Part shown: positions 7,560 to 10,509 of the stretch, piece by piece | Numbering within the stretch: the first letter of the stretch is position 1 | Layout: each line of letters begins with the position of its first letter | Source: Akkermansia muciniphila | GTDB lineage: Bacteria > Verrucomicrobiota > Verrucomicrobiia > Verrucomicrobiales > Akkermansiaceae | DNA length: 64,000 nt | Assembly: GCA_945874895.1 (NCBI GenBank) | Contig: CAMCIC010000003.1 | Coordinates: 186,001-250,000 of the forward strand | Reading direction: 5' to 3' | Position numbers and translations under genes: made by a program | The notes under the pieces: generated by a model | Seen by the model: the letters and a program-made list of their open reading frames with translations, nothing else | What the model was told of the DNA's origin: nothing | The model's database searches: none

Positions 7560-7607
7560 AATTCTGGGCGCGGTGCTTGGTGCATGGTTAAGTAAAAAAT
7601 CGAAAAT

Positions 7608-7621
7608 CAACATTCGTCATT
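7608..7621 (+). repeat. 14-bp arm matched inversely at 9207-9220
   Basis: The 14-mer CAACATTCGTCATT here is the exact reverse complement of 9207-9220. The arms enclose the MBOAT gene. The surrounding 7600-7690 is AT-rich and carries ATTAAAAATTAAGAATTCAT, similar in style to the ATTTTGAA repeats after the MBOAT gene. Confidence 0.6.
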
Positions 7622-7691
7622 AGTAGGCGTTGTTCTTCGTTCAATGTTGTTCCATTGAGCATTAAAAATTAAGAATTCATCATTTCTCTTC

Positions 7692-9149
7692 ATGCTCTTC
7701 AATTCATGGGAATTTCTGGGGCTACTCTGCATTACCTTGTTTGTCTATTATCTGCCGTGGGCAGGGGGGCGACACGGCAAGGCCTGGCAAGTAATGGTTG
7801 CCTTGATCGCCAGCGTGGTGTTTTACGGATGGGAGGACCCCAAACTTCTCGGCTTGCTGGCTATTTCCTGCGTGGGCAACAGCATTGCCACGGCGCGTAT
7901 CATCCTCTACAAAGTCCGGGGGGATGAACCGCGTGTTAAAAAATGGGTTCGTCTTGCGGTGATTCTGAACCTCGCGCTGTTGGCGGTTTTCAAGTATCTG
8001 CCATTTGTGGTGAGCATGATCCCTTTTCTGCCAGAGCATTGGGTGCTTTGGGTGCGTGACATTCCGCTTCCAATCGGCATTTCGTTTTACACCTTCCACG
8101 GCATTAGCATGATCGTAGATGTGGCGCGCGGTGAAGTCACAAGGGAAAGCGATGCGATGCTACCTCGCGGTTCCCGTTTTGCCAAAGGTGTGCGGGACAT
8201 TGGATTTTACCTACTTTTTTTCCCTCAGCTGGTTGCAGGTCCTATTGTAAAAGCGAAGCAATTTTGGCCGCAGATCGCAGCGAAAAAATGGTCTGATATC
8301 CTATGGAGCAAAGTCATTCGGTCTCTGATACTAGGTTTTTTTCTCAAAATGGTGGTTGCGGACAACCTCGCCGAGCAAACAACAAGTCTCACGAAACCAT
8401 GGCTTAACGCACTTTCTCCCTTGGATCTTACGATGCTCCTGTATGGATACTCCATGCAAATCTTTGCTGATTTTGCTGGATACTCTCTCATCGCGATTGG
8501 TCTCGCCGCTTTGTTTGGTTATGAGTTTCCTATCAATTTCAATTTTCCTTACTTATCAACGAGCATTACGGAATTCTGGCGTCGTTGGCACATGTCGCTC
8601 TCAGCTTGGTTGCGCGACTACCTGTACATTCCTCTCGGCGGCAACCGCAAGGGGGAGATGCGCACCTACATCAACTTGTTCTTGGTCATGTTCCTCGGGG
8701 GATTGTGGCATGGTGCCGAATGGAAATTCGCGCTATGGGGAATGCTGCATGGGGTATTGCTTGGCATCGAACGGTTCTGTTTCCGCCATCAAAAAGATAC
8801 GAAAGCACAGCGTCCGGTATGGCGTGCCCTATTGGGGTGGTGTTACACGTTTCATGCGGTGACCCTGCTCTGGTTGACTTTCCTTATGCCTGACATGGCA
8901 CAAATCGCCTATTTTTTCGAGGAACTTCTCATACCGGGGCGCATAACGGGGCCAGCATTGTTCAGTTCGTTCGTGTTTGGATCCGCAGTCGTTCTTTACC
9001 ATGCCTTTGGGTGGTGGCGTGAGCATCGAAACACCTCTTTCGAGCGTTTTCGCGGCTCCTGGAAAGAATCCATGATCTATGGTGTAATGGTGTTCCTCAT
9101 CCTCACCAACTCTGGCCCACCGCAAGGGTTCATCTATTTTCAATTTTGA
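7692..9149 (+). CDS. MBOAT-family O-acyltransferase (AlgI-like)
   Basis: This 485-residue polytopic protein is a membrane-bound O-acyltransferase of the AlgI/PatA/DltB type, which passes acyl groups across the membrane to polysaccharides. The family core is intact: NFNFPYLSTSITEFWRRWH with His300, LRDYLYIPLGGNRKG (307-321), and GGLWHGAEW with catalytic His340. Such proteins work with a periplasmic SGNH partner, here the product of 9625-10509. The four-helix-bundle gene between the two is out of place. The stop codon lies inside an ATTTTGA repeat tract. Confidence 0.92.
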   Translation: MLFNSWEFLGLLCITLFVYYLPWAGGRHGKAWQVMVALIASVVFYGWEDPKLLGLLAISCVGNSIATARIILYKVRGDEPRVKKWVRLAVILNLALLAVFKYLPFVVSMIPFLPEHWVLWVRDIPLPIGISFYTFHGISMIVDVARGEVTRESDAMLPRGSRFAKGVRDIGFYLLFFPQLVAGPIVKAKQFWPQIAAKKWSDILWSKVIRSLILGFFLKMVVADNLAEQTTSLTKPWLNALSPLDLTMLLYGYSMQIFADFAGYSLIAIGLAALFGYEFPINFNFPYLSTSITEFWRRWHMSLSAWLRDYLYIPLGGNRKGEMRTYINLFLVMFLGGLWHGAEWKFALWGMLHGVLLGIERFCFRHQKDTKAQRPVWRALLGWCYTFHAVTLLWLTFLMPDMAQIAYFFEELLIPGRITGPALFSSFVFGSAVVLYHAFGWWREHRNTSFERFRGSWKESMIYGVMVFLILTNSGPPQGFIYFQF

Positions 9150-9174
9150 ATTTTGAATGAATAATTTTGAATCT
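9142..9174 (+). repeat. ATTTTGAA repeat tract, left end of the four-helix-bundle unit
   Basis: The unit AATTTTGA recurs about three times, beginning inside the MBOAT stop codon. The 11-mer AATTTTGAATT at 9142-9152 is repeated inverted and without mismatch at 9628-9638, just after the four-helix-bundle gene. The pair therefore brackets a 497-bp segment. Confidence 0.6.
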
Positions 9175-9206
9175 GAAAAGTAATCTAATGACCAATCAAA
9201 CATTAA

Positions 9207-9220
9207 AATGACGAATGTTG
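9207..9220 (-). repeat. 14-bp arm inverse to 7608-7621
   Basis: AATGACGAATGTTG is the exact reverse complement of 7608-7621. It lies in the AT-rich leader between the MBOAT stop and the four-helix-bundle gene. Confidence 0.6.
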
Positions 9221-9281
9221 AATTACAATAAACTCTTGTGTTAATCATTCTGAGCATGAGTACAAATTTCTTTCGATAATC

Positions 9282-9305
9282 ATGAAAGAAAAAAATTTAT
9301 TCTAA
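9282..9305 (+). other. frameshifted 5' end of the four-helix-bundle gene with slippery A tract
   Basis: ATG at 9282 opens a frame reading M-K-E-K-N-L-F and stops at TAA 9303-9305. The heptamer A AAA AAT (9290-9296) sits in phase for a -1 slip. A -1 shift there gives M-K-E-K-N-F-I-L-T-K-S-Y-D-F-S-L-K-I, which runs straight into the frame of 9335-9628 and looks like the usual N-terminus of four-helix-bundle proteins. A one-base loss from an original A8 would produce the same picture, as would a sequencing error. Confidence 0.6.
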
Positions 9306-9334
9306 CAAAATCTTATGATTTTTCCCTGAAAATC

Positions 9335-9628
9335 ATGAGGATTGCCAAATCGATTCGTGAGTGTAGGGAATATGACTTGGCTTCACAATTATGGCGATCC
9401 GGAACGAGCATTGGTGCCAATGTTGAAGAAGCACAGGCTGCGCAAAGCAGGGCTGATTTCAAATCCAAGTTGTCGATAGCAGCGAAGGAGGCGAGAGAAG
9501 TCCATTACTGGCTGAGACTCACGATTGACAGCGGAGTGTTATCAACTGAAGAGATAAAACGTGCCTTGCGGAACGCGGACGAGCTTAAACGAATTCTTAC
9601 TTCGATCATCAAATCCGCTTCTTCATGA
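9335..9628 (+). CDS. four-helix-bundle protein (23S rRNA intervening-sequence family)
   Basis: The 97 residues from ATG 9335 carry the family hallmark LWRSGTSIGANVEEAQAAQS (about 22-41), then AKEAREVHYWLRL and a final amphipathic helix. Relatives normally have an extra N-terminal helix of about 18 residues; that helix is encoded just upstream but is offset by one base from the ATG at 9282. Function in this family is poorly known; members are found in rRNA intervening sequences and as free-standing genes. It interrupts an MBOAT-SGNH pair, so it is likely cargo of a small mobile unit rather than a polysaccharide gene. Its TGA overlaps the next ATG. Confidence 0.85.
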   Translation: MRIAKSIRECREYDLASQLWRSGTSIGANVEEAQAAQSRADFKSKLSIAAKEAREVHYWLRLTIDSGVLSTEEIKRALRNADELKRILTSIIKSASS

Positions 9629-10509
9629 ATTCAAAATTAACAATGCTACGTTTCCTCCTTGGAGTAGCTGTTGCTTTACTGCTATGCTTCGGATTACAAG
9701 CTGTTTTCTACTACGTGCTGGATGGGAGGACGGGGAAGGGAGAATCGAACTATTTCAGCACAATGAGCCGATTTCAAGCGGCCGCCCAGTCACCGGCGGT
9801 AATCGCCTTCGCAGGATCGTCGATCACAGGGCGAATCCCCGGGCGAGAGATAGGCAATGATGCGATTGCCAATCTTGGCTGTGATGGAGCCGGCGCTTTG
9901 GATGGTATCGCGGTGATGGCTCAAGGTCTCATTCCTCAATCTCGCTGGCTGGTGGTAGAAACAAACACTCTTTTTGTGGCCAATGAACCATCCGATAGCC
10001 TTATTGTGCGCGGTTGCAAAGGATTGGGCTTTATTTTAGGTTCTCAATTTCCTCTGCTTGGCGCTTCGGCTCGTCCATCCGCGATGCTTTATTCTCGTCT
10101 TTCACAAAGGCGAAATGCCATACGGGCAGAGTCTTATGAAGTCGATGTTACACCGATTTCATTGGTTGATTTTACTTCTGCCGACCGACGTGAGGTTCAG
10201 TTGCTAAGTCATTATTCGAAATATCTAGAGATGATCGCTGAACGTGGAGTAAATATTGTATTGGTCCACATTCCTGCAGGCGTCAGGCAAGAGCGTGATG
10301 AAAAATTAGAACTTTGGGGAACTGGTATTCTCTGTGGGAACCATGGATATCCCTTCGTTGATTTGGAAAAGCAAATAGGCAGGGAACGCTTCAAATTTTC
10401 CGATGGAGTGCACATGGAGCCACAATCTGCTGCGACAGTATTGTCAACAATTGCGAAACTCTGTGATCGGTGGGATGAAGAAAATAAGTTAAAAATCAAT
10501 CATCGTTAG
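9625..10509 (+). CDS. SGNH-type partner of the MBOAT acyltransferase
   Basis: The protein (294 residues from 9625) has an N-terminal anchor (FLLGVAVALLLCFGLQAVFYYVL) and a periplasmic SGNH-like domain. AFAGSSITG (61-69) gives the nucleophile Ser66, and FSDGVHMEP supplies Asp260 and His263. This matches AlgJ/AlgX/DltD-like proteins that accept acyl groups delivered by an MBOAT protein and place them on polysaccharide. ATG 9643 may be the original start, since the first six residues come from the inverted-repeat end of the four-helix-bundle unit; ATG 9625 overlaps the previous stop (ATGA). Confidence 0.75.
   Translation: MNSKLTMLRFLLGVAVALLLCFGLQAVFYYVLDGRTGKGESNYFSTMSRFQAAAQSPAVIAFAGSSITGRIPGREIGNDAIANLGCDGAGALDGIAVMAQGLIPQSRWLVVETNTLFVANEPSDSLIVRGCKGLGFILGSQFPLLGASARPSAMLYSRLSQRRNAIRAESYEVDVTPISLVDFTSADRREVQLLSHYSKYLEMIAERGVNIVLVHIPAGVRQERDEKLELWGTGILCGNHGYPFVDLEKQIGRERFKFSDGVHMEPQSAATVLSTIAKLCDRWDEENKLKINHR
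9628..9638 (-). repeat. 11-bp right arm of the four-helix-bundle unit
   Basis: AATTCAAAATT is the exact reverse complement of 9142-9152. It overlaps the stop of the four-helix-bundle gene and the first codons of the next gene. Confidence 0.6.

Follow-up and report, generated by a model that had tools for sequence, protein, structure and literature searches.

The window, the whole 64-kb stretch of DNA analysed here, hosts a gene for a DltB-like MBOAT acyltransferase (7692-9149, plus strand; PF03062, E 1.9e-28; the TIGR04091 match, E 1.4e-54, is under the cut-off of that profile), followed by a gene of 294 amino acids (9625-10509, plus strand), which adjoins MBOAT genes in relatives too. The latter is labelled SGNH in the first-pass annotation only, and gave no match in Pfam and NCBIfam profile searches. 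As that annotation had proposed, an insert separates MBOAT from its operon partner, since the two lie side by side in relatives. The insert measures about 0.5 kb, resides outside any 23S rRNA gene, and consists of one S23/IVP gene (9299-9628, plus strand, as read in the family's conserved frame) set between putative inverted arms made of tandem heptamers. The IVP ORF is the sole ORF of at least 80 amino acids lying wholly between the arms, and no transposase is found inside the element.

The ORF exceeds the cut-offs of both PF05635, the "23S rRNA intervening-sequence protein" (S23/IVP) family (E 4e-23, 82 bits against a curated 33.8), and TIGR02436 (E 6e-27, 94 bits against 24). PF05635 is matched in at least 45 of the 57 genomes of the order, the source genome included, among the matches listed; no relatives of the window protein were found in viral contigs. 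Structure prediction for the conserved frame (pLDDT 97) gives a four-helix bundle of the 2rld/2gsc type (TM 0.91 to 2rld, the best PDB match, and 0.86 to 2gsc), and both entries contain five chains. Ahead of ATG 9335, the first usual start codon of the IVP frame, the conserved first helix (ILTKSYDF) can still be read in frame, but no usual start codon precedes it, ATG 9282 being out of frame. The window copy is therefore shortened or decayed.

The left arm (9142-9172, plus strand) is an array of AATTTTG-type heptamers, unit TGAATTT, with TGAAT at 9147 and 9154 and again, past an interruption, at 9168. The right arm (9628-9644, minus strand) is an imperfect 17-nt inverse (88%) of 9136-9152, exact over 11 nt (9628-9638). 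The perfect inverted 11-mers first described around a four-helix-bundle gene are indeed there, as AATTTTGAATT is found at 9142-9152 (plus strand) and 9628-9638 (minus strand), with the PF05635 ORF in between. The insert had been said to start within the MBOAT stop codon (9147-9149). The final MBOAT codons, CAA TTT TGA, which specify a C-terminal QF and the stop, overlap the first arm unit, and relatives lacking the IVP gene at this junction share the C-terminus FIYFQF; the insert hence begins in the stop codon or immediately behind it, as claimed, but the first letters of the arm are host codons. At the other end ATG 9625 of the right host gene overlaps the IVP stop, and the native start is more likely ATG 9643, immediately beyond the right arm. 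A heptamer-like sequence within the element, AATGACGAATGTTGA (9207-9221, plus strand), is the exact inverse of 7607-7621, upstream of the MBOAT gene.

Arms so short and AT-rich may be due to chance, a caution already raised in the first-pass annotation. The two AATTTTGAATT matches are the only ones in the window, against 0.10 expected, and none of 100 shuffles gave two; a single strict period-7 tract, at 9136-9158, occurs in the window, and the 464 kb scanned in this genome contain two in all. Yet, in spite of the exact inverse 11-mer around the S23 ORF, the flanks of the window copy align with a score of only 12.0, a value equalled or exceeded by 8.7% of mispaired flanks, and the left arm begins in host codons. 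The window copy alone is therefore no proof of arms; taken alone its arms are marginal, and the case rests on the family. That two AT-rich 11-mers simply happen to lie close together is nevertheless hardly credible, given that the MBOAT junction is empty in relatives, that the unit belongs to the TGA/GAA class of its protein subfamily, and that a solo array of the same unit resides elsewhere in the genome.

Arms and units across the family

Four PF05635 genes reside in the source genome, and all are flanked, by eye, by inverted heptamer arms. The heptamer differs from copy to copy, and is shared by both arms of each copy. When arms were scored by flank alignment, with a threshold of 14, two of the four, the window copy and L004 (13.0), fell below it. 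In a set of 166 loci from several phyla, from which nine duplicates had been removed and in which orthologous copies of sister species remain, 120 loci scored >14, against 61 of 1651 mispaired flanks; the window copy is one of the 46 below the threshold. Only one of 368 control ORFs of at least 90 amino acids exceeded it, and none of the 84 in the 90-200 amino acid class. Among control ORFs, flanks pair (score 15.5) for that of MBOAT alone, on either side of which lie the 7607-7621 and 9207-9221 sequences. Relatives were represented by 93 loci (91 with enough flank), being the best matches and the same-genus ones among the matches listed. One of the nine removed loci, L082 (score 15.0), turned out to be a neighbouring gene and not an IVP copy. 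Arm self-identity in the 166-locus set is 0.64 at lag 7 and 0.60 at lag 14, against 0.24-0.34 at lags 5, 6 and 8. In cyanobacterial plasmids, the 8 records read out of 14 correspond to 7 distinct loci, all scoring >14, and 7 of the 15 IVP copies of one Fodinibius genome pass.

Other IVP genes had been predicted to carry the same arms. Inverted arms they do have, but not the same letters; as each copy has its own heptamer, a search for identical letters would fail although the idea behind it holds. Accordingly, AATTTTGAATTTTGAAT, considered as a signature of all IVP genes, was rejected, being found at two genome sites only, the window and a solo array lacking a gene. The window 17-mer has a single further site in the genome, this gene-less solo array, which is built of the unit seen in the window.

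Protein identity and unit similarity are correlated (Mantel r 0.21, a value as high in 1 of 5000 permutations) once pairs from the same genome or with the same neighbour, the latter recognised by a blastp filter, are excluded. A filter for shared sites based on common 5-mers had marked 5882 of the 6555 pairs, and gave way to blastp. Heptamer and subfamily of the protein vary together at unrelated sites, a modest correlation in which host phylogeny is only partly controlled. Units of different subfamilies include AAGACNN, GTCACTR, AGTTTTC and TGAANNN. All 5 scored units of the window subfamily contain both TGA and GAA, against 15 (TGA) and 17 (GAA) of 111 in other subfamilies, and the TGAATTT unit of the window fits its subfamily. 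As to concerted evolution of arms at shared sites, between-locus scores of 449 pairs are at background level; most pairs are thus not orthologous sites, and the gyrA group among them provides examples only.

Filled and empty junctions

Six of the ten MBOAT-partner junctions inspected (source genome and relatives) have no room for a gene. The empty junction sought in relatives is present in six of them, 9-36 nt separating the last MBOAT codon, stop codon included, from the first matched residue of the partner. Among 16 metK-ahcY junctions, 5 host an IVP gene, 1 arms only, 8 are empty and 2 are of other type; the corresponding figures for 19 gyrB-gyrA junctions are 4 filled, 1 with a solo arm, 7 empty and 7 other. 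Gap lengths at these three sites include the stop codon, and in some cases initial codons as well. In Pseudomonas the exact stop-to-start distance between cysD and cysN is 1-16 nt in 26 of 30 species, and 454-499 nt in the other 4. No target-site duplication is visible at this site when a filled junction is compared with one having a 1-nt gap, the two being from different species. The survey of Pseudoalteromonas junctions counts the 10 that were readable, of 28 entered and 30 fetched. Junctions called empty are not always bare, as five checked at gyrB-gyrA and metK-ahcY show a period of 9 (lag-9 identity 0.41-0.71). The MBOAT-partner junction of one relative was evaluated as an inverted heptamer element and rejected; since its halves pair weakly (score 10), it is called just a gene-less heptamer-like stretch. 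Elements located between co-directional genes point with them in 66 of 72 cases (p 7e-14).

The same distribution could in principle result from a non-mobile, old, vertically inherited regulatory module, made of a small RNA- or DNA-binding protein and its sites, which has been lost many times, empty junctions being losses. A single subfamily with GTCANNN units precedes gyrA in six genomes (G000, the source genome, G006, G008, G015, G021 and G042), and its occurrence in several genera also fits an old insertion followed by repeated loss; similarly, at metK-ahcY, G000 and G009 carry copies that resemble each other in both protein and arms. This explanation is nonetheless unlikely. The metK-ahcY site carries a different subfamily and different units in G039, close IVP proteins with similar units adjoin unrelated genes, and between trmJ and suhB the element points one way in one Pseudoalteromonas and the other way in another. 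Moreover, the nearly gapless cysD-cysN junctions of 26 of the 30 Pseudomonas species would require many clean losses, had the element been present in the ancestor.

Movement is suggested by comparisons between species. The minimal mobile or cassette-like unit, devoid of its own transposase, envisaged in the first-pass annotation is supported by empty junctions and by arms at other copies. In our estimate, with a probability of about 0.7, the window harbours, in decayed form, a small mobile element similar to the intervening sequences (IVS) of 23S rRNA, which has inserted in a protein operon and encodes a protein recognising its arms. Cassettes of this kind are found at operon junctions of several bacterial groups, which suggests a widespread mobile element that has largely escaped notice.

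Possible mechanism and relation to known systems

In the favoured model the IVP protein, with its Avd-like fold and five-chain PDB relatives, would bind its own heptamer arms, either as DNA or as RNA stem. In the operon mRNA, base pairing of the arms may form a stem that encloses the gene and could be cleaved by RNase III; insertion at a stop/start junction would thus be tolerated, as in 23S rRNA. The predicted terminal RNA stem of a gyrB-gyrA copy is about 28 bp long (z -5.6); that of the window copy is weak (z -1.5, 6 of 100 shuffles being equally good). As neither transposase nor reverse transcriptase is found inside the element, the DNA steps of movement would use host or trans-acting enzymes. 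Loss of the gene leaves solo or paired heptamer arrays.

Enzymes acting in trans might belong to other elements. IVP genes could be passengers of a DNA transposase, for example of the Y1/REP type, heptamer arrays representing its ends. Y1_Tnp matches occur in 51 of the 57 genomes and at 3 places in the source genome, none in the element, and gene-less arms resemble MITE derivatives. Since arms differ between copies, a single transposase is not expected to recognise all of them; arms track the IVP subfamily instead, and G036 has an armed IVP gene (score 26) and no match to Y1_Tnp, the only transposase profile used, which makes such dependence improbable. Equally, the gene could cooperate in trans with a reverse transcriptase, like Avd in diversity-generating retroelements (DGRs). 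The model resembles Avd (TM 0.78 to 4dwl and 0.77 to 8ub7; Foldseek E 0.1-0.3), and matches the bAvd profile below its cut-off. Yet the RVT_1 profile found no match in the source genome (97% complete, four IVP genes), nor in the IVP-bearing G015, G022, G027, G034, G039 and G054, among which G039 (one contig) and G054 have 7 and 9 IVP matches, respectively, among the matches listed. This scenario, to which we assign little likelihood, is contradicted in these genomes, unless the enzyme has diverged beyond the reach of the profile, or was present only transiently.

A broader version of the favoured reading is tentative, and rather doubtful. S23/IVP proteins could be a large family of sequence-specific binders, the heptamer code of which is written in their own arms, forming with host enzymes alone transposase-free mobile elements. 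These might enter stop/start junctions in sense via an RNA stage (excised, stem-closed operon RNA), arms being re-copied from each other; a single element class would then also cover, as special cases and remnants, 23S rRNA IVS and the intergenic heptamer arrays known from Xanthomonas and cyanobacteria. PF05635, a common family of unknown function, would gain a testable role at the heart of a mobile element that has a recognition code of its own, and with the heptamer code at hand binding can be tested directly. Three puzzles would be joined, namely rRNA IVS, S23 genes in core operons such as gyrB-gyrA, and intergenic tandem heptamers. Inserts inside essential operons could also alter their mRNA processing.

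The elements share with the 23S rRNA IVS of Leptospira and Coxiella the S23/PF05635-type ORF, terminal inverted repeats (by arm score, in most of the loci), sporadic distribution and a size of 0.4-0.5 kb. For the Coxiella IVS, the accessible text of PMC4990558 describes tandem GACAGAT heptamers before the S23 ORF, a 28-bp terminal stem, and RNase III cutting at the first repeat; its authors think that the S23 protein is not made. Unlike IVS, the elements reside at protein-operon junctions (MBOAT-partner, gyrB-gyrA, metK-ahcY, cysD-cysN) and not in rRNA, have many units going with protein subfamily, and are heptameric in both arms.

Cyanobacterial STRRs are intergenic heptamer arrays as well. 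Tandem 7-mers between genes are further described, in the accessible parts of the reports, as GGGAATC in Xanthomonas, often in convergent inverted pairs (70 cases in Xcc), and GGGGA(T/C)T in Nostoc (PMC4692102), and as TAACTGA arrays in Beggiatoaceae (PMC4679880); unlike the elements described here, they are not linked there to S23 genes. The solved IVP structure 2gsc comes from Xanthomonas campestris, and heptamer arrays may thus be remnants of IVP elements.

The Avd protein of DGRs shares the four-helix fold, and its likeness to PF05635 is noted in the accessible part of PMC10053308; DGRs differ by their reverse transcriptase, for which the source genome gave no match. REPIN/RAYT systems and MITEs have in common with the IVP elements short intergenic inverted repeats and gene-less derivatives. 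The IVP elements are set apart from both by the absence of an internal transposase, by variable tandem-heptamer arms, and by a four-helix-bundle protein which co-varies with them.

The window copy and the MBOAT junction

The two inverse 11-mers at 9142-9152 and 9628-9638 proved exact, and are the sole pair of this kind in the 64 kb (2 found versus 0.10 expected). The only gene between them encodes an S23, or "23S rRNA intervening-sequence", protein (IVP; PF05635 and TIGR02436 profile matches), with an MBOAT gene on its left and the following gene of the operon on its right. The first-pass annotation had described the segment as splitting an MBOAT-SGNH pair. The element does separate the two genes, and the SGNH label of the partner found no family match in profile searches. 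The final codons of MBOAT, CAA TTT TGA, provide the first letters of the left arm, and are thus host sequence; the FIYFQF C-terminus is common to relatives having no IVP gene at the junction. A match to the partner gene turned up in 11 of the 57 genomes, that of the window (G000) among them, and the junction upstream of it is readable in 10. The empty junction sought in relatives exists: in six genomes (G004, G007, G009, G015, G027 and G030) the first matched residue of the partner lies 9-36 nt past the last MBOAT codon, stop included, leaving no room for a gene. The junction spans 100 nt with no evident heptamers in G008, and 238 gene-less nt with heptamer-like letters and weak pairing in G005. 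In G021 a different IVP gene with GAGACGC-type arrays precedes the partner, MBOAT lying past the contig end.

The predicted structure of the conserved frame is a confident four-helix bundle (pLDDT 97), similar to the S23 structure 2rld (TM 0.91) and to the DGR protein Avd (4dwl; TM 0.78, Foldseek E 0.1). Residues Q, S, E, E are invariant in the family, R and N nearly so; by inspection, no known nuclease motif was recognised among them. Reading is open upstream of ATG 9335, and the 5' end of the gene (9282-9340) is out of frame with ATG 9282, near an A run. Since the conserved first helix has no usual in-frame start, the copy is probably decayed, or may start at ATG 9335. A 15-nt exact inverse pair, TCAACATTCGTCATT / AATGACGAATGTTGA (7607-7621 and 9207-9221), flanks the MBOAT gene, and the region 7590-7690 resembles a degraded run of heptamers that may be left over from a further element.

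Inverted heptamer arms in the IVP family

G000 hosts four PF05635 genes. The idea that the other copies would carry the same arms held in part: by eye, inverted arrays of tandem 7-nt units flank all of them, the letters changing each time. The heptamer is GTCACTR at the gyrB/gyrA junction (L002), AAGACNT at metK/ahcY (L001), GAAGAGT in the locus L004 and AATTTTG in the window copy. Arms were scored by local alignment of the left flank to the reverse-complemented right flank, with a threshold of 14, which L004 (13.0) and the window copy (12.0) do not reach. A 17-mer of the window recurs once in G000, in a solo array (L006; contig C18, around 49730) of about three and a half GAATTTT units, beside open reading frames and with no IVP gene nearby, which is likely a remnant of the same element kind.

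Arm scores exceeded 14 in 64 of 91 loci with enough flank from G000 and relatives (93 taken), and in 56 of 76 from a public-genome scan (80 kept of 585). Of 18 plasmid records matched, 14 are cyanobacterial, and 8 of these were read. Once nine duplicates were removed, 120 of 166 loci passed versus 61 of 1651 mispaired flanks (63/90 in G000 and relatives, 50/69 in public genomes, 7/7 in the cyanobacterial set), distinct loci being those with no common 80-nt core, so defined that orthologous copies from sister species are included. Among control ORFs of G000 only 1 of 368 passed, namely the MBOAT ORF adjoining the element (0/84 in the 90-200 aa subset), as did 3 of 384 random places. Self-identity in armed segments is 0.64 at lag 7 and 0.60 at lag 14, and 0.24-0.34 at lags 5, 6 and 8. 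Strict period-7 tracts number two in 464 kb of G000, a sample excluding the other three IVP loci and L006, and one is the left arm of the window. Left-arm units carry AG in 89 of 108 cases and CT in 18, a bias indicating that arms have strand polarity. The window finding is real, and the copy is a member of a broad element class.

Fodinibius halophilus (G061) has fifteen PF05635 matches (L340-L354), several clustered, in a 4.2-Mb genome; seven pass the arm score, and the related elements L341 and L343, with GAGATNT-type units, reside at different places. IVP genes of Shewanella and Vibrio (L222, L229, L224) occupy a junction in a putative polysaccharide-export operon; in place of clean heptamers, their flanks have longer repeats that include CTAGA/GCGAAGCGCTCTAGC-like motifs.

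Heptamer and IVP protein co-vary. The comparison covered 107 loci and 5244 pairs in which the two genomes differ and no neighbouring ORFs are homologous. In these pairs the similarity of the units correlates modestly with the identity of the proteins (r 0.21, equalled in 1 of 5000 label permutations), host phylogeny being only partly controlled. Below 45% identity the units have a mean similarity of 0.42; the mean is 0.51 at 60-70% (189 pairs) and reaches 0.61 at 70-95% (14 pairs). The window subfamily, defined by an SGTSIGA-type motif, includes nine loci, two in G000. Its scored units contain TGA and GAA in 5/5 cases each, versus 15/111 and 17/111 in the remaining loci; by eye, TGA or GAA occurs in the best-paired flanks of all nine, three of which score below 14. 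The match of its TGA/GAA letters to the subfamily is good evidence that the arms of the window copy are real.

Filled, empty and gene-less junctions

Names of gyr, metK, ahcY, cys, trmJ and suhB genes derive from reading translations, not from annotation; cas and ribonucleotide reductase names are those of the records. Of 27 gyrA junctions found, 19 were read: gyrB-element-gyrA occurs in four (G000, G006, G008, G015), gyrB adjoins gyrA with no IVP gene in seven, a solo right arm without the gene is present in G005, and seven have other arrangements, including an IVP before gyrA in G042. In G008 (L100/L075) an additional ORF of ~100 aa (MNDKLTKEQILQAPSRLDELLRERG...), absent from the other gyrB/gyrA junctions read, separates gyrB from the element, and is possibly cargo or a second insertion. 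At ahcY (26 junctions found, 16 read) an IVP gene follows metK in G000, G009, G004, G042 (arm score 10) and G039, the latter with a different IVP subfamily and AGTTTTC arms; eight junctions have no IVP gene, G007 has both arms and no gene, and two have other neighbours. Five gene-less junctions checked (metK/ahcY of G002, G003 and G006, gyrB/gyrA of G004 and G009) are not bare, and feature period-9 repeats, for example GATCCGACC-type nonamers (lag-9 identity 0.41-0.71).

In Pseudomonas (79 genomes with a match, 30 cysD/cysN junctions read) the stop-to-start gap is 1-16 nt in 26, and 454-499 nt with heptamer-like ends in four, the IVP gene being profile-confirmed in one (L238/G057). Comparing L280 with L271 places the insert between TAAG and ATG, with no target duplication visible across these different species. 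At trmJ/suhB of Pseudoalteromonas full elements have opposite orientations in L188 and L228 (which scores 11.0 because its two units differ), and gene-less arrays of AGGTTCT or AGCTATC plus GGCTGAC are found in L293, L303, L313 and L317, among 10 readable junctions. Heptamer-armed IVP genes also reside on plasmids, between cas6 and cas4 in Pseudanabaena pPg_01 (L162), and, in Nostoc pNe_5 (L167), between the genes of the two ribonucleotide reductase subunits, in the orientation opposite to theirs.

Orientation, proposed mobility and relation to rRNA intervening sequences

Of the 120 armed loci, 72 have co-directional neighbours; the element reads with them in 66 of these and against them in 6 (p 7e-14). 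Divergent genes flank a further 13 loci and convergent genes 9, and 26 could not be assigned. The left arm starts a median of 6 nt past the upstream stop codon (75 cases). Such a pattern could reflect insertion via RNA, or else selection in favour of sense copies. RVT_1 matches are missing in G000 and in the IVP-bearing G015, G022, G027, G034, G039 and G054, which argues that a reverse transcriptase of the same genome is dispensable. Elements could alternatively be moved by Y1 transposases supplied in trans, enzymes common among these genomes; yet G036 has an armed element and no Y1 match.

The operon elements would be IVS-like, with arms serving as recognition sites for the protein and as processing sites of the RNA, and enzymes from elsewhere would be required for movement. 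The Coxiella IVS, as described in PMC4990558, has a 28-bp terminal stem and tandem GACAGAT before the S23 ORF, in copy number varying among strains, the first repeat being the RNase III cut site; according to the same source, the S23 protein is probably not produced there, and IVS as such have long been suspected of mobility. As RNA, the gyrB/gyrA copy is predicted to fold with a terminal stem of ~28 bp (z -5.6), the window copy weakly (z -1.5). The likeness of PF05635 to Avd is noted in PMC10053308. Heptamer arrays of Xanthomonas and Nostoc (PMC4692102) and of Beggiatoaceae (PMC4679880) are described, in the available portions of these papers, without a link to S23/IVP, and no open-access paper joins non-rRNA S23/IVP genes with heptamer arms among the matches listed (titles and beginnings of abstracts, of incomplete coverage). 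The element kind is already known from rRNA; the operon form, the heptamer code and the derivatives look new.
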